Virus record (IMG/VR): IMGVR_UViG_3300028025_000597
Location: 1 to 22,177 of that record
Direction: 5' to 3' (one strand)
DNA from: a virus
Length of the DNA: 22,177 nt
Under the pieces are notes generated by a model. The model was not told where the DNA came from and did not search any database. It saw only the letters and a program-made list of their open reading frames with translations. Of the stretch, positions 2,211 through 22,177 are shown piece by piece. The first letter of the stretch is position 1. The number at the start of each line of letters is the position of its first letter. The position numbers and the translations under genes were made by a program.

Positions 2211-3482
2211 TTATTTTCCTTTTAATAAATCAATTTCAGCTTTAAGTTCTTGAATTGCTTTAATTAATACTGGTACTAATTCTGAAGTTGCCAATCCATA
2301 CATTTGTGTTTTTTCATCCTTTAAATCTGAAACCGCTTCATCTATTACAGATTTAACTTCTTGGGCAATTAAGCCAATGTGTTTTTTGTCATCGTCATTT
2401 TCTGCAACCATGTTATAAATAACAGGTTTTAGTTTAAGAATTTCATTAAGTCCGTATTGCAAGGGTTCAATATTTTTCTTTACTCTAATATCAGAAAGTG
2501 GTGTATACACACCAGTAGCAGCAGAAATACTTGCTCTCAATGCTCCATTGTAAGCAAACACAAAATCGCCAGTAGTTACATTATCACGACCAAAAGTAAA
2601 TTGAAGCGTTCCTGAAGAATCGCCTGAAACATAATTTCCTATTGCAGGACCATCCCAAGAACCAATAGCTATACCAGTACCTCCATTACTTACTTGAAGT
2701 TTTGCAACAACAGAACCAATAGAAGAAGATAAACCCACCAATAATCGACCACTAGAGTCAATACGCATACGCTCTGCACCGCCAGTATAAAACCTATGTG
2801 CAGCAGCAGAATAAAGAAAATCTAAAGCTGAACCAGCACCTGTTCTATCTATGCTTTCAAAATAATTTGCAGCAGCTCCTGATGTATAGCCAAATTCAAT
2901 ATTTCTATTACTTCCATCAGAAATAACAAATTTAGTTAAAGGGTTGCTTGTGCCAACTCCTACATTTCCTGCGCTACTAATACGCATACGCTCTGTTAAA
3001 GTTCCAGCACTACTACACAAAACTGACATTCCACCGCTTGTTCCATCCACATTATTTGTGGCTAAAGCAAAATAACCGCTACCAGACGAAGGGAAACTTG
3101 AGCTATTCTTTCCATAAAGAACAAACCCGCCAGCACCTGCAGTAATAGCACCGTCTTGAACCTGTAACTTTGTAGCAGGACTAGCAGTACCCACTCCAAT
3201 ATTCCCACTAGCATCTTTATAGAACTGTCCAGAGCCTAAATTAACTACTCCTGTTCCGCCTGTAAGAGTGCCTGTGTAGGATAAGTTAGTAAAAGAGCCT
3301 GAAGCACTAGCTCTAGTAGCTAAGACTTGTACTACTCCAGCAGAATCTTTGTAGAAAAGCTTCCCATCGGCTGTATTAATGTTAAGGGCTAATTCGCCAT
3401 TAACAAGATTGCCAGCCGTAGGTACTGCGCTTGCAGTAGTCGTATAGTAAGTCGAAATGGGTGTAAATCCAGTAGCTGCCAT
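2211..3482 (-). CDS. Tailspike/tail fibre with C-terminal Peptidase_S74 intramolecular chaperone
   Basis: This 423-aa beta-rich protein probably recognises the host surface. Residues 1-60 form a fibre N-terminal module (ASAVPTAGNLVNGELALNIN, then GKLFYKDSAG). The middle carries repeated strands of the type GN(I/V)GVGT-x-P-TK (around 93-107 and 172-186) and RMRI-SS-G (166-173, 238-246). The C-terminus from S330 is an S74 chaperone: LSDIRVKKNIEPL, then LKPVIYN, HIGLIAQEV, and a trimerising coiled coil at about 402-421. In this family the chaperone trimerises the spike and then cuts itself off. The expected cleavage point is before S330, with S330 and K335/K336 as the likely dyad. The preceding 79-aa module is separated by only 2 bp but lies in another frame. 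Confidence 0.88.
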   Translation of the reverse strand: MAATGFTPISTYYTTTASAVPTAGNLVNGELALNINTADGKLFYKDSAGVVQVLATRASASGSFTNLSYTGTLTGGTGVVNLGSGQFYKDASGNIGVGTASPATKLQVQDGAITAGAGGFVLYGKNSSSFPSSGSGYFALATNNVDGTSGGMSVLCSSAGTLTERMRISSAGNVGVGTSNPLTKFVISDGSNRNIEFGYTSGAAANYFESIDRTGAGSALDFLYSAAAHRFYTGGAERMRIDSSGRLLVGLSSSIGSVVAKLQVSNGGTGIAIGSWDGPAIGNYVSGDSSGTLQFTFGRDNVTTGDFVFAYNGALRASISAATGVYTPLSDIRVKKNIEPLQYGLNEILKLKPVIYNMVAENDDDKKHIGLIAQEVKSVIDEAVSDLKDEKTQMYGLATSELVPVLIKAIQELKAEIDLLKGK

Positions 3483-3484
3483 GA

Positions 3485-3724
3485 TTAGTATGTCCCGCCA
3501 AAAATGCCTGTTAAGGCTGTTAGTGTACCAACATTATTAATGTTGTTTGTTGCCATATTCAATGCGCCTGACATAGGAGTTTGACCATCTGAGGCTACTG
3601 ACTGAGTAAGGGCATCAGCAATGTTTTGCATAGTTGAATTAGCCCAACTACTTGTAATAGTAGTCCCTGTTACTACTGGGTTACCTGCTGGGAGGCTGTA
3701 TGTACCGCTTCCGTTTCTACTCAT
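3485..3724 (-). CDS. Stand-alone fibre-anchor module (N-terminal fibre domain as a separate gene)
   Basis: The 79 residues begin MSRNGSGTYSLPAGNPVVTG and continue with SSWANSTMQNIADALTQSVA and DGQTPMSGALNMATNNINNV, ending GIFGGTY. In many phages this sequence forms the N-terminus of much longer tail fibres, where it attaches the fibre to the tail. Here it stops after the GTLTAL-G linker and has no receptor-binding part. It overlaps the upstream 538-aa gene by 8 bp and is followed after 2 bp by the tailspike. I infer an adaptor between the tail and the spike, or the remnant of a longer fibre. Its last codons resemble those of the 592-aa fibre gene (see findings). Confidence 0.8.
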   Translation of the reverse strand: MSRNGSGTYSLPAGNPVVTGTTITSSWANSTMQNIADALTQSVASDGQTPMSGALNMATNNINNVGTLTALTGIFGGTY

Positions 3725-8916: not shown

Positions 8917-9309
8917 TTATGCCCATTTACAATATTCTGGGCGCATTTCTAAAATGACCAAATCTCCATCTTCATGTGCGTCAGGAATAGTGGCAACATC
9001 TTTGAAACCAAGGTGTCGGTTTAGTCTTAGGGCTTTTTTATTACTCCCTGCGACTGTGCCAATTATAACCTTTAATTTCAAGGTGTTAAACGGGTAATCA
9101 AACACTTTTTTAACAAAGTCTTTAGTTGCCCAATGCTGCCCTTCTGACCCTACATGAATCATGCAAGATTTGCCGTAAAAACCACAATAAACTACTACTG
9201 CTTTAATCTGTCCATTTAATGCTTGTCCCAAATAATGTGCGTCATTTGGAGTAGGCATTTTATGTTTAATAGCCCAATCTTTAATACTTTGCTGATTAAG
9301 CAATATCAA
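8917..9309 (-). CDS. GNAT-family N-acetyltransferase with TTG start
   Basis: This small enzyme should transfer an acetyl group from acetyl-CoA to an unknown amine. The fold signature is present: a beta strand, KVIIGTVAGSNKKALRLNRH (about residues 80-99), then LGFKDVATIPDAHEDGDLVI. The loop-helix-LGF portion is motif A/B of GNAT proteins, where acetyl-CoA is bound. I place the start at TTG 9309 because it forms a TTGA overlap with the upstream hub stop and has a near-perfect GGAGGT five bases upstream (9315-9320). The longer ATG reading from 9351 would add 14 residues (MGFYRLCNGGWRCC) that only mirror hub codons. The product is 130 aa. It sits between the hub and the first ejection-type protein. 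Confidence 0.82.
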   Translation of the reverse strand: MILLNQQSIKDWAIKHKMPTPNDAHYLGQALNGQIKAVVVYCGFYGKSCMIHVGSEGQHWATKDFVKKVFDYPFNTLKLKVIIGTVAGSNKKALRLNRHLGFKDVATIPDAHEDGDLVILEMRPEYCKWA

Positions 9310-11321
9310 ACAACACCTCCAGCCTCCATTACATAATCGGTAGAAGCCCAATGCAACTCAATATTACGACTTGCAGCATTTAAGTTTACAGAGCCTGTAT
9401 AGCCTATTCCTGTAACACCTTGCCAAATCTTTGTAGTAATTAAGCCACCAGACCATACATTTCCATCCCATTTGGCTGTGTCCCAAATACCATCAGACTG
9501 AATACTAGGGTTAAATGAAACTGCGCCTAATTGAGATTGAGTGTCAAAATCTACGCTAATACCGCATAAAACGCTTGGTACGCCACCTGTTGACTGTAGT
9601 ATTGGTCTTACCATAGTAAATCGCTTTAACTGCCCTGGTGAATCAAAATAGCTATATGCTTGTTGTGCAGTTGCAGTAATATTGGCTTCGTCATCAGACA
9701 AATTATCGTAAAAAATACCTACAAAACCATTGCTACCAAAGTGCATATCGGCATCGCCTGACACTTCCCAGCAATAACCTTGAATACCTGTAAATCTAGC
9801 CCATGACTTAGTAATTGTGTGCATTACATATTGCTCTATGCCATTAGGAATAGGAATATTTAATATCAGCATATTTTCAGAAGCAAAATAGTTAATTTGC
9901 CAGCCAAATTGTGCAAAATAAAGAGTTGCAGCTTGTGAAACTGCAAAGTAAATCTTATCTGTAAGGTTAACTCTAGGGTCTAATCGGCTAGACTGAAGTG
10001 CAGAAGCTAAAGGTACTAACCCGTCTTGCGTTAGTAGCAATAAATCGCCAGCAAATTTAAAGAAGCATCTACGGCTAAAGGTTTGACCTAATTGCCATAC
10101 ACCTTTTAATGCCCATGTGTCAGCATTGTCAGGGTCAGTACCGTTATAAACAATAGCTTCGCCCATAGAGGTGACAAATACTGCGTAGTCATCAGCACCT
10201 TGACCTGCGTCTAGCGTCCAAGTACCCATTGCTTGCAAATAGCCTGAATTACGAGCTATTCCGCCAAAATAAAGGGGTGAAGCAACACCACCAATAGCGT
10301 CAGGGTCTAAATACCAACAAGTTAAACTGTCTTCTTCTGTGAAATATAAGCGGTTTTTAAACAAATTGACATTAACAAATTTGTTACTGTTTACGCCAGT
10401 AATGCCTATTGTTGTGTAAATTCCTACTACTGTAGCATTGGCGGCTGGGGCAGTAGCCATTGTGTAAGTAAAGCTACTTGCTCCAGTTACTGTAATGACA
10501 TAAGTACCATTGTAATTAGACTCTGTAGCACCAGAAATTGTGACACGATTATTAGTAACTAAACCATGCGGAGCAGCCGTTGTAAGAGTAGCTGTTAAGT
10601 TACTTGCACCACCTCTAGTAATAGTGCTAATTGTTTGAGCAGTTGTAGTTGTAGCTACATAAAACCAGCGTGTGCCGTCATAAATGGTTACAGGGTCAAC
10701 ACCATTACAAGCTACTAAAAACTTACCTGCGGTATTAGTAAGGTTAACTGACTGAAATTTATCGCTAGAAATACCAGTAAACGCAACAGTAGCAGGGTTA
10801 GCTTTAGTTTCCCAAATGTTTGTACCTGCTGCCCCAAATAACTTATATGTACCCACTTCGGTGTAATTCATCAAAGTGTTAATAGGGGTTGTAGCTTGAT
10901 TTAAGTATGTACCTACTACTGTGGCATTACCACTTGGAATAGTTACTGTTACATAAGTAAATGTTGTAGTGCTAGTTACTGTAATTTTAAATACACCGCT
11001 ATATGCAGCAGGTGTTGTGCCACTAATTGACACATAAGCACCTGTTGTTAAGCCATGTGCTGTAGCTGTTGTTAAAGTAGCTGTTGTGCCTACAAAAGTA
11101 ATACTGCTAATTGTTTGTACGCCAGAAGAAGTAGTTAATATAGACGAAACTGTGTAACCCTTACGCATAGTCACATCAGTAGGCGTGGGATACCAGTTAA
11201 CTAACTGTACTGCGTCAGTAGGACTCATGTTTGCAAGCGAGTCTCTAGCGTTCCAACCACCAATAGGTGCTGGCACAGAAGCCGTTTTAGCTGTGTTTTG
11301 TTTGGCTCTTTGTAATAGCAT
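9306..11321 (-). CDS. Tail hub/stabilisation protein, P22 gp10-like
   Basis: This 671-aa protein would form part of the tail closing the portal vertex. The N-terminus contains VPAPIGGWNARDSLANMSP followed by AVQLVNWYPTP and VTMRKGY, a conserved start I know from podovirus gp10-like hubs. The body is beta-rich with propeller-like elements (KNRLYFTEEDSLTCWYLDP, SMGEAIVYNGTDPDNADTW, LLLLTQDGLVPL) and a C-terminal beta domain. Two related insertions at about residues 70-139 and 229-302 look like duplicated Ig-like modules. The length is greater than that of P22 gp10 (about 470 aa), and the inserts explain much of the difference. It is coupled to the adaptor by TAATG and overlaps the acetyltransferase start. 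Confidence 0.8.
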   Translation of the reverse strand: MLLQRAKQNTAKTASVPAPIGGWNARDSLANMSPTDAVQLVNWYPTPTDVTMRKGYTVSSILTTSSGVQTISSITFVGTTATLTTATAHGLTTGAYVSISGTTPAAYSGVFKITVTSTTTFTYVTVTIPSGNATVVGTYLNQATTPINTLMNYTEVGTYKLFGAAGTNIWETKANPATVAFTGISSDKFQSVNLTNTAGKFLVACNGVDPVTIYDGTRWFYVATTTTAQTISTITRGGASNLTATLTTAAPHGLVTNNRVTISGATESNYNGTYVITVTGASSFTYTMATAPAANATVVGIYTTIGITGVNSNKFVNVNLFKNRLYFTEEDSLTCWYLDPDAIGGVASPLYFGGIARNSGYLQAMGTWTLDAGQGADDYAVFVTSMGEAIVYNGTDPDNADTWALKGVWQLGQTFSRRCFFKFAGDLLLLTQDGLVPLASALQSSRLDPRVNLTDKIYFAVSQAATLYFAQFGWQINYFASENMLILNIPIPNGIEQYVMHTITKSWARFTGIQGYCWEVSGDADMHFGSNGFVGIFYDNLSDDEANITATAQQAYSYFDSPGQLKRFTMVRPILQSTGGVPSVLCGISVDFDTQSQLGAVSFNPSIQSDGIWDTAKWDGNVWSGGLITTKIWQGVTGIGYTGSVNLNAASRNIELHWASTDYVMEAGGVV
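9315..9320 (-). promoter_or_regulatory. Shine-Dalgarno GGAGGT that decides the TTG start of the acetyltransferase
   Basis: GGAGGT on the minus strand lies five bases from TTG at 9307-9309 and is encoded within the last codons (Gly-Gly) of the hub gene. It is among the strongest ribosome-binding sequences in the window. No ATG lies downstream of it until the ATG of KMPTPND, which is too far away. Confidence 0.75.
10416..11114 (-). repeat. Two diverged copies of a ~70-residue beta-domain within the hub gene
   Basis: Copy A (10905-11114, residues 70-139) and copy B (10416-10637, residues 229-302) share the same pattern. Both have TISxIT near the start, then ATLTTAxxHGL, then VxISGxTxxxYxG, then ITVTxxxxFTY, and finally NATVVGxY. 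They read as an internal duplication separated by about 90 residues of unrelated hub sequence. Confidence 0.85.
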
Positions 11322-13292: not shown

Positions 13293-14267
13293 TTAGGTTG
13301 TCAACAAGCCTTGTAGGAAGCTGTTAGATGTAGTCAAGTTACCAGCCCAACCGTATAACTTCACGATTGCGTCTTGGTTAATTGACTGACGCTCGCCACC
13401 GATAGGTACAAAGTTACGCTCTTTGTGTGGGCGTAAGAAAATGTAGTTGGTGTTAAGCATATACATGTAAGTAGCTGTCTCTTGTGAGCCATAACCACCA
13501 CCCAATACTACATCGGCAGAAGTACCGCCACCGTAGAATTTGAGGGAAGCGAAACCAGCAGCGCCAGACTCTTCAGCAGCAATACGCTGAATAGACTGCA
13601 ATGCGCCTACATAGTATTGGTACATTGTGTTACCAGCAACAATTAAGTCAGCTTTGTCTGTGCCACGAATCTGTTTAATAGCAGCTTCAGTCATTTTAGC
13701 CAAAATAGTGTTAGCAGTAGCGCCAGTAGTGATTTGGTTCTGCCAGAAAGTCCAAACTGCACGGTTAATACCACCGTAAGTGCCAGTTGTAGGTGAAACT
13801 GCAACAGCAGCGCCTAGACCGTCAAGGTTCTTACCACCGTTACCAGTACCGTTACCGTACAAGTCACCAGAAATGCGGTTTAACAAGCGAACTTCAGAAA
13901 CTTGCATACGACCATCTAACAAGTCGATGATTGCCTCTTTGGAGCTGTTTTGCAACATTTCTAAGCCAGACATAGTAACTGCGTCAGCGTACTGAGCAAT
14001 TTTGAACTGAGCAGCAGAAATAGGGCTATCTGGAGCAATATTTAATACTTCATATCCGCTATAAGAGTTAGCGTTGTTGGTTGCTGAATCGTCATACATG
14101 ATTTCTTCCAAAATCACATTACCGCCTGAGAATGGGCGTACATTGCCCTTCTGTTGTAGGCGCTGAAGAATAGCGTTGTTTTGTGTTAAGTTGTCTGCCA
14201 ATTCACCGCTACGACTTTGAATAGTTGTGGCGATAATATCGGTAATAGCTGAGTTAGCGAATGCCAT
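13293..14267 (-). CDS. Major capsid protein (HK97-type fold expected)
   Basis: The 324-aa product is the shell subunit. It begins MAFANSAITDIIATTIQSRS and has the features of HK97-fold major capsid proteins of this phage group. An N-terminal helix is followed by NVRPFSGGNVILEEIMYDDS (E-loop-like region), and then AAQFKIAQYADAVTMSGLEM. A Gly-rich loop follows (YGNGTGNGGKNLDGLG), then a helix-rich P-domain (ILAKMTEAAIKQIRGTDKAD). The C-terminal portion contains RPHKERNFVPIGGERQSINQ, then QDAIVKLYGWAGNLT. No N-terminal protease or delta domain is fused. Scaffold lies immediately upstream and the decoration gene downstream. The RBS AAGGA lies about 8 bases before the ATG. High expression is likely. 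Confidence 0.88.
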   Translation of the reverse strand: MAFANSAITDIIATTIQSRSGELADNLTQNNAILQRLQQKGNVRPFSGGNVILEEIMYDDSATNNANSYSGYEVLNIAPDSPISAAQFKIAQYADAVTMSGLEMLQNSSKEAIIDLLDGRMQVSEVRLLNRISGDLYGNGTGNGGKNLDGLGAAVAVSPTTGTYGGINRAVWTFWQNQITTGATANTILAKMTEAAIKQIRGTDKADLIVAGNTMYQYYVGALQSIQRIAAEESGAAGFASLKFYGGGTSADVVLGGGYGSQETATYMYMLNTNYIFLRPHKERNFVPIGGERQSINQDAIVKLYGWAGNLTTSNSFLQGLLTT

Positions 14268-14303: not shown

Positions 14304-15359
14304 TTAAACCAGACGGCTCATTGCTTCACCTAATTGGTCAGCAATTAAAGACCGTCTATCCTTTTTATCTTCTGGATTACTCACTTTTCCACTAGGAGTA
14401 GTGGACTTAGGACTAACCGCAGCAGCCTTCGCTTTCTGTACTTGTTGTGCTTTGATTGCTGACTGTTTGGCATCTTTCAAGAGTCTATCTTGCTCTAATG
14501 CCCATACATCATCATTCATACGCACAGCTTTCTTGTAAGCTGTTTCTAGGTCTTGGGCTTTCCCTAGCTCAAGTAATTGAGCCATTTCTTCCCTTACCAC
14601 ATCAAAGTGAGGGTATTTCTCCACATCACTTCTTACTCTTTCAATTTCACCCATTAAGCGTTGATTTTCCTCTTCGGCAAATCGACCTTTAATGCTTGAA
14701 ACTTCTTGATTAACCATATTTAACTGGTTCATCAGTTGTTGCGTATATGGGTCAAGCTGTGTTGCTTGTCCATTTCCATTTAATTGTATACCATAATCTG
14801 CCGCAAGTTTCTGAAATACTTGGACTTTTTGCTCATAAGGTGCGTTAGACAAAATCTGCTCTGCACGGACTAAGTTTTCAATATATTGAGTTGGCTGTAT
14901 ACCTCTGCGTTGCAAATTGTCTGCAAAAGGGGCAATAGCGTTTTCATAAGACTTAGCTCTGTCAGCTTCAGCTTTATAAGTGCTTACGCCTTTCTTATAT
15001 TCAGACTCACGCTGATTAGCGTATTCAGCAAACTTAGTAAAGTCTTCTTTGCTAATTTGCTCACCAGCTTCCATTTTGTCCCAAATTTGGACATATTCTT
15101 TTTTCCAAGTAGAAGGTCTGCTTACAGGTTTGGCTTCTTCCTCCTGCGCCTCATCCTTATTCGCAAATTCAATAGAATCAGCATCTTGGGAAGTTTCTTC
15201 GTTGTCATGTGAGCTAACTTCCTCTTTAGCGGACTCCTTGGAAATGTTGTCCTCATCAGCCATTTCAATGTCTTTTTCGATGGGTGTTTCAAGTGTGCCA
15301 TCCTCTGCTGCGTCTAATGCAGCTTCTAATAAATCTCTGCGGTCTAATTGCTCTTCCAT
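14304..15359 (-). CDS. Scaffolding protein
   Basis: A 351-aa, highly charged and largely helical protein directly upstream of the capsid gene, the usual place for the scaffold. The N-terminal 85 residues are very acidic (for example DIEMADEDNISKESAKEEVS). A helical middle follows with GIQPTQYIENLVRAEQILSN and coiled-coil segments (about 210-290). The C-terminus is basic (KDRRSLIADQLGEAMSRLV), as expected for the capsid-binding end of scaffolds. No protease motif is seen. I start it at ATG 15359 (MEEQLDRRDLLEAAL) with an AGGGA site just before it and a 7-bp gap to the previous stop. A longer reading from 15404 would overlap the previous gene with non-typical sequence. Confidence 0.82.
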   Translation of the reverse strand: MEEQLDRRDLLEAALDAAEDGTLETPIEKDIEMADEDNISKESAKEEVSSHDNEETSQDADSIEFANKDEAQEEEAKPVSRPSTWKKEYVQIWDKMEAGEQISKEDFTKFAEYANQRESEYKKGVSTYKAEADRAKSYENAIAPFADNLQRRGIQPTQYIENLVRAEQILSNAPYEQKVQVFQKLAADYGIQLNGNGQATQLDPYTQQLMNQLNMVNQEVSSIKGRFAEEENQRLMGEIERVRSDVEKYPHFDVVREEMAQLLELGKAQDLETAYKKAVRMNDDVWALEQDRLLKDAKQSAIKAQQVQKAKAAAVSPKSTTPSGKVSNPEDKKDRRSLIADQLGEAMSRLV

Positions 15360-15366
15360 GATTTCC

Positions 15367-15747
15367 CTATCGGTAGTTAAGTTTTGCGTATGCCAATTCT
15401 GCAATCTGGCGCTTTCTTGCTTCTTGTGACTTTTTGCTCATTTCTGGCGCTTTTTGCTGCAAAGGCACATCGTTGCCTAATTCAACACAACCGTTGCGTT
15501 TTAGGTTTTCTCTGTGCTTAGACCGACTGTCTATCCATGTGCCATCAGCCATAGAAATATGGCCTGGTATGTCAGACATTACTGCTGGGGCTTCTCTAGC
15601 TACCATTTCTTGCTTTTGTTTCCAGGCTTCTTCAGCTTCAGGTGTACCTAGGGTAAACCCCCAAAACTCAAGGTAAAACTCTTTATCAGACTGTTGTTTT
15701 TTTGCAACATGGTTACTTCCTGAGTAACCGCAATTAGGGCAAATCAT
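15367..15747 (-). CDS. Small phage protein with N-terminal CPxCG zinc-ribbon-like motif (126 aa)
   Basis: The product starts MICPNCGYSGSNHVAKKQQS, where C3-x2-C6 and possibly a His form half of a zinc ribbon. The central block ISMADGTWIDSRSKHRENLK followed by RNGCVELGND is a pattern I have seen in small proteins encoded next to portal and scaffold genes in related phages, where it ends with a basic helix, as here (KKSQEARKRQIAELAYAKL). No second CxxC pair is present, so metal binding by a monomer would be incomplete. The function is unknown. The start overlaps the glycosyltransferase stop as ATGA, so the two are translated together. Confidence 0.7.
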   Translation of the reverse strand: MICPNCGYSGSNHVAKKQQSDKEFYLEFWGFTLGTPEAEEAWKQKQEMVAREAPAVMSDIPGHISMADGTWIDSRSKHRENLKRNGCVELGNDVPLQQKAPEMSKKSQEARKRQIAELAYAKLNYR

Positions 15748-16637
15748 AGTTTCTCCAAAAGACTAGGCAATTTATGCCATTCATTTTTACGAAGCGGTAC
15801 AACAGAGTCATACCAAGTACCATGCCGCCACCGCCAACAAATATAATCATCTTCAGGTAGCAACATAAAACATTTAACCCCTAATGCACCAGCAAGGTGA
15901 GCAGTAGCGGTATCGGGTGCAATGACGGCTTTCATGGCTTTCATGTGGCAAGCAGTCTTGTAGAAGTTTCTTTGCCAACCATCATTAGGAAGAGTGTCAA
16001 ACGCATCGCTTTCTTTGACATGAAGCGAATACATATTATCGCCAAGCATTTCTCGCAATTCGTCTATAGGCAAAGACTTAACATAGTGCAATGGGCCTGT
16101 AGAAGCATGCCAATTAATACCTACTTTGCGCTCTATATTGCTTGCAATAGCTTCAAAATAGCCTTCTGAGCCAACAATATGCTTGGCAGTAATAGGAAAT
16201 GACTGTTTTACAAATGGGGGCGCATAGGTAGCAAAATGAGGAAGTGACATAGAGCCAATCCAGTAATCTGCTTGCGTTGGTGGGCCATCAGTCTTTGAGC
16301 AGGAAATGTAATCTATGCAATCCATTGTCCCTAATAGTTGCATCATGGACTCATGGCATAGTACAGACAGGGTTTTAGCACCCCATGCTTTAAGCATTGG
16401 CAAAAATCTGGCAAATTGAATAACATCGCCAAACCCTTGCTCCATTTGCACAACAATGTGCTTGCCAAAAAGTCTTTCACCATCCCATTTGGGGGCATTT
16501 GACCATTTTTCAAAGTTTTCGCCAGTAGCTTCTATAACTTTAGGATGCCACCTATACTCATACAGTCTAAAACCTGCTTGAAAATGTCCTAAGTGAAGTA
16601 AATTTATGCCTTTTTTGTATTGCTGATAAGGAGTCAT
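15744..16637 (-). CDS. Glycosyltransferase of GT9/TPR type, likely host-derived accessory gene
   Basis: A 297-aa protein related to the bacterial TPR-containing, heptosyltransferase-like glycosyltransferases. One TPR-like helix pair is at residues 3-36 (YQQYKKGINLLHLGHFQAGF). A catalytic-type domain follows: WDGERLFGKHIVVQMEQGFG and DVIQFARFLPMLKAWG (51-86), ADYWIGSMSLPHF, KVGINWHAST, and the hallmark nucleotide-sugar-binding block IAPDTATAHLAGALGVKCFM and LLPEDDYICWRW (239-270). In cellular relatives several TPR units precede the domain; here only one remains. It may modify host surface sugars or virion proteins. The donor and acceptor cannot be read from the sequence. It lies between portal and scaffold, within an operon otherwise devoted to structure. 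Its SD is rather far from ATG 16637; a CTG at 16640 is an alternative. Confidence 0.82.
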   Translation of the reverse strand: MTPYQQYKKGINLLHLGHFQAGFRLYEYRWHPKVIEATGENFEKWSNAPKWDGERLFGKHIVVQMEQGFGDVIQFARFLPMLKAWGAKTLSVLCHESMMQLLGTMDCIDYISCSKTDGPPTQADYWIGSMSLPHFATYAPPFVKQSFPITAKHIVGSEGYFEAIASNIERKVGINWHASTGPLHYVKSLPIDELREMLGDNMYSLHVKESDAFDTLPNDGWQRNFYKTACHMKAMKAVIAPDTATAHLAGALGVKCFMLLPEDDYICWRWRHGTWYDSVVPLRKNEWHKLPSLLEKL

Positions 16638-16653
16638 CAGTTTTTACTACCCT

Positions 16654-17133
16654 TTATAAAATTAACGCTAATAGTGCTTCTTCATCGTCTAATTCTGCTT
16701 GGCGCTTAACTTCTAAAATTGCTAACTCTTGCTCTAAGCGGAGTTTTGCGGCTCTTATTAATACAGCGTTTTGCAAGTCTTTTTGTTGCGCTACAAGATT
16801 AGCGATGTATCGGTCAATATTTGCTAGGTTTGACGGTGTATCAACGCTAACTTCTTGATTGGATTGTACTTTGTTTTGTTTCTTATTTGCAACAGGTTTA
16901 GGGTCAACTAAATCTGCAATGGTTTGCTTGCGTAATTCTTGGTCAGCTTTAAGTGCTGCAATACGCTTTTCTTCTGCCTGGCGCAGTTTCTTCTGAATAC
17001 CCTTAAGACGCTTTAATTCTTCTCTTGTGTAAGGTGCGTCATCCCCACCAGTTTTTGTAGGTGTAACAGGAATAATGACAATTTGAAATGCGTTATTTTG
17101 AAACGCATTGACTTGAAAAGCAGTTTGAAACAT
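16654..17133 (-). CDS. Coiled-coil protein with N-terminal FQ repeats (159 aa)
   Basis: The N-terminus is a short iterated sequence, MFQTAFQVNAFQNNAFQIV, which I know from small phage proteins found next to fibre genes. A linker (PVTPTKTGGDDAPYT) is followed by two long charged helices (about 37-75: REELKRLKGIQKKLRQAEEK; about 103-155: YIANLVAQQKDLQNAVLIRA and KLRLEQELAILEVKRQAELD). The FQ repeat could be a beta-strand stacking or docking element; the helices probably oligomerise. I cannot assign a function. The start is coupled to the fibre stop by TAATG, so it may be a fibre-associated assembly protein (inference). Confidence 0.68.
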   Translation of the reverse strand: MFQTAFQVNAFQNNAFQIVIIPVTPTKTGGDDAPYTREELKRLKGIQKKLRQAEEKRIAALKADQELRKQTIADLVDPKPVANKKQNKVQSNQEVSVDTPSNLANIDRYIANLVAQQKDLQNAVLIRAAKLRLEQELAILEVKRQAELDDEEALLALIL

Positions 17134-18911
17134 TAGAATGTACCGCCAGACACCCCTACATAAGTAGTAGCTGTAATGGTTGTACCAGTAATTAAATTAG
17201 GCGTTGTACCACCAATAGCAGGAGGACTAGATAAGTCTAATGAACCCCCTAGTGTCAAACTACCGCTAGAAGTGACTGTTCCGCTAAGGCTAATTCCTGA
17301 GACTGTTCCTGTACCGCTTACGCTAGTTACCGTACCACCTAATGATGGCAAAGTATTGGTAATAGTAATAGAACCTGAACCATTGGTTATAGATACTCCA
17401 GTACCAGCAGTTAAAGTGGATTTTGTAAGCGTATTGCCTGTAGTGTTGCCAATTAATAACTGACCGTTGGTATAGCTAGTTTGACTTGTACCACCTTGGT
17501 CTACTGCTAATGTGCCGATAATATGTTGAGTTTCAGTAGAAACAATTTGGACTGAAACTAACAATGTGCCAACACTAGAGTTTGCCCTGAGAATTACGCC
17601 TACTTGAATTGAATAATTAGGTCTTGTAGGCTCTGTAACTGTATATGTTCCAGCGGTTGTAGCCGATAAAAATACAGCATCACCTTCATTAAAAGCCGAT
17701 GTGTCTAGCCCATTAACCAATCCATTAATGGTTACATAACCAAAGCCATTGTTTGCAATACTTGTAGTAGTAACACCAATAATGTCAGAAGTAGCAAAGC
17801 TAGTTGCTATTGCTTTAGCAATCGTAGGAGTATTGCCTGTTGCTCCATTTACATAAACTACTGTGCCATCAGCAATAGTTGAACCAGTTTGATTGCGTAC
17901 TCTGACAATGCTTTCTTGACCGATATTTACAGTCATTTGATTGTTATCGTTGTAATAAGCTAGTGTTTTAGCATCTGTGTCGTAAAAAACTTTGCCTTCT
18001 AAATAAGTAGGTGCTGTAACTGGCGTAAAGTTTTCTTGAATAACTCCTGTAATTGCACCTGTATCGCTTACTGTTACTACGCTGTTTTGTATTAATTTGC
18101 CTGTGGTTGTGTCAAACCTAGCAATAGCATTGTCAGTAGCGGAAGCTGGGCCAACTACATCACCACCTAAAGACGGGGCAGTATTAGCAACGGTAAAGTT
18201 AGGGTAAGTGCCTGTAACGCTTATTCCCGTGCCACTAGCAATCGCTACGGTTTGGTCAGGCGCAGTATTGGTTACTGTAAATGCTGGATAAGTGCCAGTA
18301 GCAGAAATGCCTGTACCACTAGCAATACTAACTGTTTGGTCAGGCGCAGAGTTGGTTATAACGCCTGTGGAATTGTCATAACTAATGCCAGTACCAGCAC
18401 TATTAGAAGCCCTAGCTCTAGCATCCGTATAGTAAAGGTTTGTACCTTCAGCTACATCAGTAGTAGTTAAAACTACTGTGCCTGTTTGTCCGTTTACGCT
18501 AGTTACGGCATCAGTATTGTCTATTTTTTGCCAGACACTACCGTTGTAAACAGCCCAGTCACCCACTTGCCAATCTGTAATCCCGTTAAGATTAGTGCTA
18601 CCAGCAACAGACACAACATAGTAGTAACCCTTAGTGCCAACAGACGAAGTAAGAGTAGGGGTATTTGTAGTGGCATTCCATGTTCCTTGGTAGCTAAGTG
18701 CTCCTAATACTGCGGCAGGTAATTCGCTTACAGGCACTTTTCCTGTGCCATCTAGCGTTGCTACACCATTAGCTACACCAGCGTTTAATTCAGCAGCAGT
18801 ACCTAATCCCACTAATGTATGGGTATTATTCCAATCACTTGGGCGAATTAGGGATGTGTCATCCCCATCAGGTATTGTTGAAACCTTAGTATGCGTTACG
18901 ACAATAGCCAT
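17133..18911 (-). CDS. Long fibre-like protein encoded between portal and scaffold (592 aa)
   Basis: An almost entirely beta-structured, Thr/Gly/Ser-rich protein. Residues 1-60 form an N-terminal attachment module (VVTHTKVSTIPDGDDTSLIR, PSDWNNTHTLVG, ATLDGTGKVPVSELP). The region 71-131 (LSYQGTWNATTNTPTLTSSV; DWQVGDWAVYNGSVWQKID) is a domain common in phage fibres. Then NGQTGTVVLTTTDVAEGTNLYYTDARAR (137-166) is a typical fibre shaft strand set. Two 28-residue repeats follow (189-244), then a domain with VRVRNQTGSTIADGTVVYVN (336-355). The C-terminus is Gly/Ser/Thr strands ending ATTYVGVSGGTF. No chaperone or enzyme domain is visible. I infer a tail or head fibre. The portal stop lies 1 bp before its ATG. 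Confidence 0.8.
   Translation of the reverse strand: MAIVVTHTKVSTIPDGDDTSLIRPSDWNNTHTLVGLGTAAELNAGVANGVATLDGTGKVPVSELPAAVLGALSYQGTWNATTNTPTLTSSVGTKGYYYVVSVAGSTNLNGITDWQVGDWAVYNGSVWQKIDNTDAVTSVNGQTGTVVLTTTDVAEGTNLYYTDARARASNSAGTGISYDNSTGVITNSAPDQTVSIASGTGISATGTYPAFTVTNTAPDQTVAIASGTGISVTGTYPNFTVANTAPSLGGDVVGPASATDNAIARFDTTTGKLIQNSVVTVSDTGAITGVIQENFTPVTAPTYLEGKVFYDTDAKTLAYYNDNNQMTVNIGQESIVRVRNQTGSTIADGTVVYVNGATGNTPTIAKAIATSFATSDIIGVTTTSIANNGFGYVTINGLVNGLDTSAFNEGDAVFLSATTAGTYTVTEPTRPNYSIQVGVILRANSSVGTLLVSVQIVSTETQHIIGTLAVDQGGTSQTSYTNGQLLIGNTTGNTLTKSTLTAGTGVSITNGSGSITITNTLPSLGGTVTSVSGTGTVSGISLSGTVTSSGSLTLGGSLDLSSPPAIGGTTPNLITGTTITATTYVGVSGGTF
18180..18347 (-). repeat. Two tandem 84-bp units in the fibre gene
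   Basis: Residues 189-216 (APDQTVSIASGTGISATGTY and eight more) and 217-244 repeat with only a few substitutions (S/A, A/V, A/N, T/A) over 28 residues. The units are adjacent and in frame, so the fibre shaft could be lengthened or shortened by recombination. Confidence 0.9.
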
Positions 18912-18912
18912 G

Positions 18913-21198
18913 TTATTGGACTCCGATTATCTTACCGTCTTGACCTCTAACCACAGTTTTAGGGCGGTTATGTTGGGCATTAATTGTATCTACTAAAGCA
19001 CTAATAGCTTGTGCCATTTGCATATTTCCGCTACCAATAGCGTCAGCAATAGGTTGCATTGGGGACTCCATAGACTTAGCCATGTCTTGCTCTGTCATGT
19101 AGGCCATTGCACCATCAGACTCATCTGAGCCAATGCGAGCTACTTCAATTTTTGCACCATTGTTAATATGAGCTAACAATACTTGAGTGTTTCGCTCAGT
19201 CATCATTTTCATTTGGGCTACTTTCATCTCCATCTCTCTGTCCATCTGATTGCGTTGCTCTTCAAGTTGGAATTTAAGTTGGTTTTCTTGTGCCTGGTAT
19301 TCTTGTTTAGCCTTTTCAAGCTGCATTTGACCTTGTAACTTAGCTTGCTCAAGTTGTGCTTGGGCTTGCATTTTCTGTTGGTCAGCTTGCATCTTAGCTT
19401 GCTCAATTTGCATAGTCATCTGCATTTTTTGCTGTTCAGGTGAAGGTGGTTTAGGTTGACCTTCTGCTTGTTTTGCTTGTTGGCGCAATTTATCAGCAGT
19501 TTCGTCAATAATTCCTTCTAATTGCTTACCTGCTTTAAAGGCTGTTACACCAAACTTCAGCATTTCAATAGCCATAGGTGCTAATTCAGGCTGAGATTGC
19601 ACTAAAGGTACTGCTTGTTGGAAGAATCCACCGACTGCTGCCAAGAATTGCATCCTATCTTGCTTTTCTTGTTGCTCATCTTGGTAAATCATTGAGTCAG
19701 AAGTGACTTCTATGCGGAAATTCTTGCTTGCTTCGTTTCTTAGCAACTCAATAGCTTGCGGAATAAGCTGTTTGTCTGTGTCAGACAGTTGCATTGCACC
19801 AGAAATCTTAACTAGCGTGTCATCAGTAAAATGATTGCAAATAATCTGCGCTTTAATAGACAGTAAGCTAGTAGCAAAGTCTACGACTGCGTGTTGCTGA
19901 GTTTTTAAGCGACCAGCAGCGTTGTTTGACTTAATAATCTGTGCGCCAAGGGTTTCGCTAGGGTCAGTTTGACCTCTTTGAATGTCAGCAATACCCATTA
20001 ATTCGTATATTTGACCCTTAACTTGCTCCATTGCCTGGTAACAGGACATTAATGCACTTGCAAAAGGTGTTAAATCTACTAAATCAATAGCACCTTTCAT
20101 GCCTTGCTTTTCAGCAAATGCCATCCAGTTGTTTACTGGAATCATTGTGTTGTTTTCGCCTTCAGAGAATAAGCGTTGTAGCTCACTTGCTGAAGCGTCA
20201 TATACACCACGCACTTTCAATGCGTTAATTAAGCCATCTATGCGGTCACAAAGGACATCTAATTCTCTAGCCTGGTCTTGGTAAATAGTAAAGTCAGGAA
20301 TAGGCTCAAGGCTGTCAGTTGTAAGGGTGGCATATAGTGGTTTAGGGCAAGGCCAGAAGTTTTCTAAACCTAATGGGTCATCTCGCTCATCAACAATCTT
20401 GCCTAATGACTTACTAATCCACAGTACTTTTCCTGTTTCTTTATCCCAAATCTCATAAATAACAGCTTCATATACGCCATCATCAGACTTATAAGACTGT
20501 TTTAAATCGTCAGGCTTTGTGTCTAATGGGATTTTATAGCCCATTTCTTCGCCAAAACGCTCAACTAATGCAGGGCGAGACATATACACTCTGCGCCAGA
20601 CTGCTGTCACTTCTTCCCATGTACGGGCAATCGTGTGTCCAAAGTCACGCCAATGGACATAATCGACAGGACAGCACTCATACTCAATGCGCTCAGGGTC
20701 TTCCATCTCCATAGCTTGTGGTGTTTCAGCTTCGTCACTATCTTCAGTAACGCTAAGTCCGTCATCAGGCTCACCAGTTTCTTCGCCAACAATATGTGGC
20801 TCATAACGCACCCAAGCTACACCACGACCACCTAATAAGCGGTCTAGTACTGCATTATTCATTGCAGACTTGTAGTCACCATAGTGCTCAATCTCAAACT
20901 CTAATGCTCTTTCAAGCATCATTGAAGCTACTCTGCCGATAGGGTCATTGTCTCTAAAGCGCCTACTAACATCAGGTCTTGGAAGTCTAGCAAAGATAGC
21001 TGGCTGAATTGTTTGGACATTTGACCAAAGAATATTAAATCTTGCGTTTGGGTTTCTGTCGTATCTTGAGTCATCTTTGTATTTTTTAACAATGCGGTCA
21101 ACTCTAGCCTCCCATCGTTTATAGCTGCGCTCATAGCCCATAATGACTTTATACCAGTCCTCATAGGTATGATTGACTGTAGCTTTATCGTTTGCCAT
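18913..21198 (-). CDS. Portal protein, P22-like, with long Gln/Met-rich C-terminal coiled coil
   Basis: A 761-aa ring subunit through which DNA is packaged and ejected. The N-terminus contains YERSYKRWEARVDRIVKKYK and NPNARFNILWSNVQTIQPAI, then FARLPRPDVSRRF, characteristic of P22-type portals of this phage group. Stem/clip features follow (CPVDYVHWRDFGHTIARTWE), then a long helix region (LMGIADIQRGQTDPSETLGA with Q/N-rich helices). Residues 589-675 are an unbroken heptad-like helix rich in Q, K, E and M, equivalent in place to the C-terminal barrel of the P22 portal. A further C-terminal segment ends VVRGQDGKIIGVQ. It is coupled to the terminase by TAATG with AGGAG in the last terminase codons. 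Confidence 0.9.
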   Translation of the reverse strand: MANDKATVNHTYEDWYKVIMGYERSYKRWEARVDRIVKKYKDDSRYDRNPNARFNILWSNVQTIQPAIFARLPRPDVSRRFRDNDPIGRVASMMLERALEFEIEHYGDYKSAMNNAVLDRLLGGRGVAWVRYEPHIVGEETGEPDDGLSVTEDSDEAETPQAMEMEDPERIEYECCPVDYVHWRDFGHTIARTWEEVTAVWRRVYMSRPALVERFGEEMGYKIPLDTKPDDLKQSYKSDDGVYEAVIYEIWDKETGKVLWISKSLGKIVDERDDPLGLENFWPCPKPLYATLTTDSLEPIPDFTIYQDQARELDVLCDRIDGLINALKVRGVYDASASELQRLFSEGENNTMIPVNNWMAFAEKQGMKGAIDLVDLTPFASALMSCYQAMEQVKGQIYELMGIADIQRGQTDPSETLGAQIIKSNNAAGRLKTQQHAVVDFATSLLSIKAQIICNHFTDDTLVKISGAMQLSDTDKQLIPQAIELLRNEASKNFRIEVTSDSMIYQDEQQEKQDRMQFLAAVGGFFQQAVPLVQSQPELAPMAIEMLKFGVTAFKAGKQLEGIIDETADKLRQQAKQAEGQPKPPSPEQQKMQMTMQIEQAKMQADQQKMQAQAQLEQAKLQGQMQLEKAKQEYQAQENQLKFQLEEQRNQMDREMEMKVAQMKMMTERNTQVLLAHINNGAKIEVARIGSDESDGAMAYMTEQDMAKSMESPMQPIADAIGSGNMQMAQAISALVDTINAQHNRPKTVVRGQDGKIIGVQ

Positions 21199-22177
21199 TA
21201 AATTCTCCTATTGGTAACAGTTTGCTGCTGTGACCATAATTCTTTCAAAGTTACATCTGTTTTGCCTACAAACACACCTCTAATAGCGTCATCTTTATGG
21301 GGCAACTTAGCTTCTTCTTTCCAGGCAATACTTAACATCCTAAATGCGTCTGCACCATGAGAAGTCCAATCGTGCCTAGGTTTATCCCTAAACACTTTCT
21401 TGTCTTCATCGTACTCACGCTGGTATTGCCTTAAACATTCAATGCCGTCTTCACATCTATGGTCAAACCAAGCTCTAGTTAATGCTAGTCGTGTTGCTTG
21501 TATTCCATCTTGAAGTGACAAACTTGGCACAATTTTCATTGATTTTAACGCAATTTTGTCTGAAAGTTGCTCAATTATGCTTCTATTTGACGCAAGTGTC
21601 TTTGCCTTAGCATCGTGAGGTAAATAATGTGTGCCATAAATGTAGCCTCTTTCTTTCTCTCTTGACTGAATAATCCCAGAATAAAACGCTACTGGCTGAC
21701 CATTAGAAGAATGGTAGTCAAGCATACGAATCTCGCCATGCACTACTTGAAACCACCATATTGCTGTGTCATCTGAGTAGCCCAAGTCCCATGCTGTATG
21801 CACAGGAAACATAGGGTCGTACTCAATATCAGTAATTCTGCCTTGGTCAGTAAGTTGACGCATTTCTTTGCCGTAATAAGCGCCCATAATTGCAGACTCA
21901 AAATCGCACTCCCACTCAGCAAGGTATTGGTCTTGCGTCATTATCTTGGCAGCATCAGCTAATTCTTCTTCGGGGATTAATTTAGTTTGACTAGCCCTTA
22001 ATGTCTTACAGTACCAGTCAGGGTCTTTAGTAGCGTTGTTATAGACTTCCCAGAATTGGTTATGGCCTTTAGGTGTACCAATAAACACAGCCCAACCTTT
22101 ACGGTCAGACAACAATGGCCTTAAAACTGCACCCCATATAGAGGGCTTCATGTCTGCGTACTCGTCTAGTACTACAC
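21198..22177 (-). CDS. terL: Terminase large subunit (5' end outside window)
   Basis: The motor that cuts and packages DNA. The frame stays open to the window edge: upstream of the internal Met at 22151 it reads VVLDEYAD, the Walker B motif with the catalytic Glu. The start therefore lies outside the window, and the Walker A part is missing. GWAVFIGTPKG is the ATPase coupling motif. The nuclease domain follows: HTAWDLGYSDDTAIWWFQVV with the first metal-binding Asp, GTHYLPHDAKAKT with a second acidic site, and DWTSHGADAFRMLSIAWKEE with the third. This is the RNase H-like arrangement of large terminases. It is the most upstream minus-strand gene visible. The small terminase subunit would be expected outside the window. 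Confidence 0.93.
   Translation of the reverse strand, partial: VVLDEYADMKPSIWGAVLRPLLSDRKGWAVFIGTPKGHNQFWEVYNNATKDPDWYCKTLRASQTKLIPEEELADAAKIMTQDQYLAEWECDFESAIMGAYYGKEMRQLTDQGRITDIEYDPMFPVHTAWDLGYSDDTAIWWFQVVHGEIRMLDYHSSNGQPVAFYSGIIQSREKERGYIYGTHYLPHDAKAKTLASNRSIIEQLSDKIALKSMKIVPSLSLQDGIQATRLALTRAWFDHRCEDGIECLRQYQREYDEDKKVFRDKPRHDWTSHGADAFRMLSIAWKEEAKLPHKDDAIRGVFVGKTDVTLKELWSQQQTVTNRRI

Follow-up and report, generated by a model that had tools for sequence, protein, structure and literature searches.

Matched fibre anchors and small-protein heads, beside a separately exchanged glycosyltransferase, in the head module of a freshwater Mx8-like podovirus

Genes between portal and capsid

We analyzed a stretch of 22,177 nucleotides (IMG/VR record IMGVR_UViG_3300028025_000597, positions 1 to 22,177; here, the window), a 22-kb piece of viral sequence whose minus strand bears the late module of an Mx8-like podovirus. 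Our subject is three genes that follow the portal gene: a variable fibre, a small protein (p159), and a glycosyltransferase (GT). All genes described here are on the minus strand. The 592-aa fibre (17133-18911) starts with an anchor of the class we call N1, MAIVVTHTKVSTIPDGDDTSLIRPSDWN, ends in VSGGTF, and matches PHROG tail families (best E, 6e-27). The 159-aa p159 (16654-17133), our proposed fibre adaptor, consists of a head of three pentads, a helical body, and an acidic-hydrophobic tail ending in DDEEALLALIL; its head, FQTAFQVNAFQNNAFQI (residues 2 to 18; 17080-17130), switches together with the fibre anchor. The 297-aa GT (15744-16637) is GT9-like, with a predicted GT-B fold, and represents the allele we call type A; its D71 and D242 are invariant. 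On one side of these genes lie the portal (18913-21198; head PHROG match) and TerL (21198-22175; open). On the other side lie p126 (15367-15747), a zinc-ribbon-like CPxCG protein with a CPNCG start that matches PHROG 21669, the scaffold (14304-15404), and the capsid (13293-14267; head PHROG match).

The initial annotation described an accessory island of four closely spaced genes between portal and scaffold. The four genes are real and placed as it stated, and the junctions are tight: 1 nt separates portal from fibre, fibre and p159 overlap at TAATG, 16 nt separate p159 from GT, and GT and p126 overlap at ATGA. Gene order was the same in 38 of 38 relatives that spanned portal to capsid and were picked by capsid similarity, with GT disregarded, so misassembly does not account for it. 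The interval given for the island (15744-18911) holds fibre, p159, and GT, with p126 falling just outside it.

Homologous portal, scaffold, and capsid genes in conserved order place the window in the Mx8-like podovirus module, and the window phage is a freshwater Mx8-like podovirus. As in Mx8/Pr-type modules, TerL, portal, a small zinc-ribbon-like or related protein, scaffold, capsid, tail proteins, and a GNAT gene follow one another in the window's order, and the major capsid protein (MCP) of Mx8 is about 50% identical to that of the window. Unlike the window, Mx8, BUCT555, and MW202489 lack fibre, p159, and GT at this site: no more than one very small gene comes between their portal and the small protein, and scaffold and capsid are next. 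Fibre genes of Mx8/Pr-type podoviruses generally lie to the right (PMC10386132). A p126 profile matched the syntenic small proteins of Mx8, ppBjS10J-1, BUCT555, and MW202489 with E-values of 5e-4 to 8e-9, which are optimistic because the search set comprised only 8 sequences. By these matches p126 is a core gene, not the island member it had been taken for, and fibre, p159, and GT together form an insertion between portal and p126.

This insertion is extra to the assembly module, as had been proposed, when compared with Mx8, BUCT555, and MW202489. It is not accessory within the window clade: all three genes were present in 38 of 38 spanning relatives, and GT was present in all 49 capsid-selected relatives having enough upstream sequence, so we rejected accessory status there. 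The insertion is fixed in the clade. The fibre block within it varies, with a portal-to-p159 gap of 1.5 to 5.8 kb across 92 relatives or loci; the fibre N-terminus is conserved and the fibre body is variable.

Pairing of fibre anchor and p159 head

First fibres in the window clade fell into two anchor classes, N1 (MAITVKHxKVSTIPD..) and N2 (MAL[VI][LI]KDRV..), and p159 into two head types, FQ (three [AG]FQ motifs) and GF (GFxAFSxxPIS..). The FQ heads were uniform: in 77 of 77, the [AG]FQ motif occurred three times, at exact spacings of 5 and 5 residues. Considering all loci, N1 occurred with FQ 141 times and N2 with GF 24 times, and one further N2 locus missed by the pattern read GF by eye; after dereplication, the counts were 62 and 15, with zero exceptions. 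In sequence, the p159 head is matched one-to-one with the N-terminal anchor class of the fibre, which bears out the earlier suggestion that a small helical protein partners the fibre. Each trait switched seven times on the capsid plus scaffold tree, and all five independent pairs on supported branches agreed (a sign test with five pairs cannot reach a P value of 0.05). At locus L111, p159 differs from its neighbors' FQ type only in about the first 16 codons, with the body unchanged; judging from this comparison, the head alone was replaced on an otherwise normal p159.

For an independent test, we chose phages by fibre anchor only. A protein with three FQ-type pentads was found at 9 of 25 N1 loci, none of which had an S-type protein, and [FY][SA]-type pentads were found at 46 of 80 N2 loci; bacterial control loci gave 1 of 80. 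A lone Q match at an N2 locus is probably a spurious out-of-frame open reading frame (ORF). The loci are not fully independent of one another; counted by DNA clusters, with the spurious ORF excluded, the matching protein was present in 7 of 16 N1 clusters and 22 of 38 N2 clusters, with no crossing. By their motifs, then, N1 goes with FQ pentads and N2 with [FY][SA] pentads in unrelated phages, with no credible crossing. Named phages with the expected combination include RHph_TM3_14A and MJing1 (N1, FQ) and, by eye, Venkman and CRP-603 (N2). In MW202496, an N1-like fibre is followed by the head TAFDPSSFSSASFES, which fits the spacing and not the strict rule. Heads and bodies were mixed: FQ heads sat on about 10 unrelated bodies, S heads mostly on one body family, and L111 and L402 each had a head of one type on the body family of the other. 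As a separate observation, five of the six named phages with an N2 fibre (L510 to L515) have a protein of about 123 to 148 aa directly before that fibre, and an ORF of about 134 aa is similarly placed in many relatives of the window.

Several points weigh against reading this pairing as contact between the two proteins. The pentad classes were defined after the window clade had been seen. About half of the N1 and N2 loci lacked a recognized pentad protein, whether because of contig ends, the strictness of the pattern, or true absence, and three or four of the six named N2 phages showed no partner among the coding sequences inspected. The AlphaFold2 (AF2) model of p159 has helices at residues 37 to 76 and 102 to 158, but it is a monomer and its FQ-repeat head (1 to 30) is disordered. 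Finally, fibre and p159 adjoin in the window clade, where a single recombination across both could transfer them together without contact.

The last point is the basis of one alternative, that whole cassettes recombine and the pairing is genetic linkage only, with the head an unrelated hitchhiker. Linkage is the main rival within the window clade. However, the exchange at L111 extends just past the pentads into p159, FQ heads occur on unrelated bodies, and in unrelated phages the anchor-pentad rule still holds where the pentad gene is several genes from the fibre, a setting in which linkage is no longer the main rival. We therefore consider linkage alone unlikely.

Because head type changes whenever anchor type changes, p159 probably holds the fibre as an adaptor, a role we assign from sequence covariation. 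In this role, its pentad head would touch the fibre anchor, and the rest of the protein, helical body plus acidic-hydrophobic tail, would bind the virion core. Contact of the body with the core is proposed because body distances follow the capsid and scaffold (correlations of 0.81 with MCP and 0.86 with scaffold) and not the GT (only 0.45). Phage fibres are generally trimeric. Each of the three pentads might therefore receive one N-terminus of a fibre trimer, and their number suggests one p159 adaptor per fibre. Alternatively, p159 could serve fibre assembly as a chaperone or scaffold-associated factor and not be a virion adaptor; the same covariation with scaffold, together with the small size, helical nature, and proximity of p159 to the scaffold module, could fit this role. 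Against it, a set of three exact pentads is suited to a structural joint, and the bodies of similarly headed proteins in other phages are long and repetitive; neither point is decisive, and we regard a chaperone role as improbable.

The adaptor candidate has no PHROG match and only a subthreshold Pfam match, and other pentad-headed proteins have no usable Pfam or PHROG match except one weak PHROG match outside the head. By named PHROG or Pfam, these proteins match no described fibre adaptor family, and the part of the literature that we covered contained no account of such a head. The needle protein of P22 was also considered as a possible counterpart of p159. We also asked whether the acidic tail marks every insertion found between portal and p126, and rejected it in this role, as only 8 of 20 insertions had it (Fisher P = 0.02); it is kept as a lead. 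In the deeper relatives L290, L310, L318, L319, L304, and L245, proteins located between portal and scaffold combine a head of three aromatic pentads (FQ/WD) with an acidic-hydrophobic C-terminal tail.

Exchange and identity of the glycosyltransferase

The GT has a history of its own. Relatives with capsids 94 to 98% like that of the window bear a GT only 46 to 50% identical. Compared with relative L135 in a 30-nt profile, nucleotide identity is about 87% through p159, falls to about 55 to 60% at the stop codon of p159, and rises again some 45 codons into p126; 100-nt profiles against seven relatives gave a similar picture. These profiles against close backbone relatives delimit an exchanged segment (15611-16660) made up of GT and the initial 45 or so codons of p126. 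On FastTree trees, the two GT types require seven changes on the capsid plus scaffold plus p159 tree, all forced by supported branches, and one on the GT tree. The trees and profiles indicate at least seven swaps of the GT allele among phages, with sharp breakpoints and independently of fibre anchor class and p159. The first 45 or so residues of p126 (15611-15747) occur as different alleles, MICP[NK]CG.. against VTCPHCKVDHEEYD.., partly exchanged together with GT. We rejected a linkage of GT to the p126 N-terminus, since their distances correlate weakly (0.28); a CxxC test was uninformative because CxxC is in every p126.

The GT is, on sequence and model evidence, a GT9-like GT-B enzyme under conservation. 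Its AF2 model has a mean pLDDT of 80, with low confidence at residues 2 to 25, and the top Foldseek matches were the GT9 structure 3tov (E, 2e-7), WaaC, and TibC, at a TM-score of about 0.5 and probability of 1.00. The identity in these matches is only 11 to 14%; the phage GT shares with GT9 ADP-heptose glycosyltransferases (WaaC, 3tov) the GT-B fold, the N-lobe Gly-Asp aspartate, and the C-lobe DTxxxHLxxA motif. Weak Pfam matches to PF01075 (GT9) were obtained for 34 of 34 members (best E, 1.6e-5), and the window GT scored 12.7 bits, under the curated cutoff of 22. D71, D242, T243, and H247 were invariant in 102 of 102 GTs, forming the N-lobe Gly-Asp and the C-lobe DTxxxHL. We equate D71 with WaaC D13 by motif, not by computed alignment; in hhalign, the GT matched the WaaC C-lobe with an E-value of 4.8e-4 and a probability of 32%. 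No useful match came from searching PDB sequences with fibre, p159, or GT.

Two more specific family assignments were rejected. TibC, a bacterial autotransporter heptosyltransferase (BAHT), has a related GT-B catalytic fold and, with its Ser-rich acceptor, serves as a model of O-glycosylation: it heptosylates serines of an adhesin (PMC4358343). It also has a four-Cys iron finger and a 97-residue N-terminal barrel (PMC4358343), whereas the phage GT, at 297 aa in all, has a single invariant Cys and no iron-finger cysteine set. Bacterial proteins combining TPR and GT9 domains are the best cellular matches, at about 30% identity over the GT domain; the TPR array of these homologues has no match in the phage GT. 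In L307 (5620-6295), a short GT match has its C-terminus on a separate 79-aa ORF; the gene looks broken, which could be an assembly error.

In our proposal, GT would be made late and add a sugar, perhaps heptose from host ADP-heptose, to Ser or Thr of a virion protein. There is precedent for virion glycosylation in the glycans reported on the capsid and tail tube of mycobacteriophages (Freeman et al. 2023, cited in PMC12619734). The fibre, with 28% Ser plus Thr, is the likeliest acceptor, and at somewhat short of an even chance we infer only that it is plausible. GT type was not associated with the anchor class of the fibre; this makes the fibre a weaker candidate for the specific acceptor and counts against our proposal. 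GT type and fibre C-terminal class changed in the same direction in 1 to 5 of 5 pairs, depending on the pairing, which was not significant in an underpowered comparison. Another virion protein is clearly less likely as the acceptor, and a host surface glycan slightly less likely again.

The last option corresponds to an alternative in which GT modifies host lipopolysaccharide (LPS), for example to block superinfection or to aid progeny release, and its position is incidental. The LPS heptosyltransferases WaaC and WaaF are among the nearest solved folds, and allele swapping would fit varied host glycans; yet GT sits among head genes within the late structural operon, at a position that is fixed in all close relatives examined, so we think this alternative has a low probability. 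Least likely of all is the view of the initial annotation that fibre, p159, and GT are one self-contained decorated-fibre system: their co-occurrence in the close clade (38/38), their coupling, the Ser/Thr content of the fibre, and the fold similarity to TibC, with its serine acceptors (PMC4358343), speak for it, but GT alleles were exchanged out of step with anchor class, the deeper relatives L245 and L304 retain an N1-like fibre and an FQ protein without GT, and, in the regions read from unrelated phages, FQ-headed proteins are not accompanied by a GT of this kind. The idea was half right, in that fibre and p159 are paired and GT is not in the co-adapted unit. Co-adaptation of the whole block was rejected because GT moves independently, and the co-occurrence check proposed at the outset separated GT from fibre and p159 in relatives without separating those two.

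Proposed arrangement and neighboring genes

We hold it somewhat more probable than not that the block combines a fibre cassette with a separately exchanged enzyme inside a conserved Mx8-like head module, with p159 as the adaptor and GT acting late. More tentatively, the heads may represent a previously undescribed docking code, in which a protein holds the fibre by three aromatic pentads at its N-terminus, one for each chain of the fibre trimer, the pentads having to match the anchor class as FQ or [FY][SA], and in which heads and bodies combine as modules in unrelated phages. If true, a short sequence rule would predict the fit of anchor and adaptor across many uncultured phages, including proteins that have no family name today, and would explain the exchange of fibres as working modules. 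A GT that keeps its position while its alleles are repeatedly swapped suggests diversifying selection on a sugar of the virion or surface in a common group of freshwater phages. The initial annotation was right that something between portal and scaffold is worth a look; GT and p126 are to be separated from the fibre-p159 unit.

Elsewhere in the module, the TerL proteins of L013, L020, L025, and L031 are only about 30% identical to that of the window, while their portal and capsid are 75 to 90% identical; by this comparison, the terminase has been swapped in these relatives. A GNAT/acyltransferase-like gene (8917-9351) in the tail module occupies the same place as Mx8p53 and the GNAT gene of ppBjS10J-1. 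A 79-aa fibre-anchor-like protein (3485-3724), ending in FGGTY, directly precedes a Peptidase_S74 fibre (2211-3482). First fibres of many relatives have GG[TS][FY] endings, and the 592-aa fibre of the window ends in SGGTF; the shared GG[TS][FY]-type endings are possibly a joint between fibre segments.

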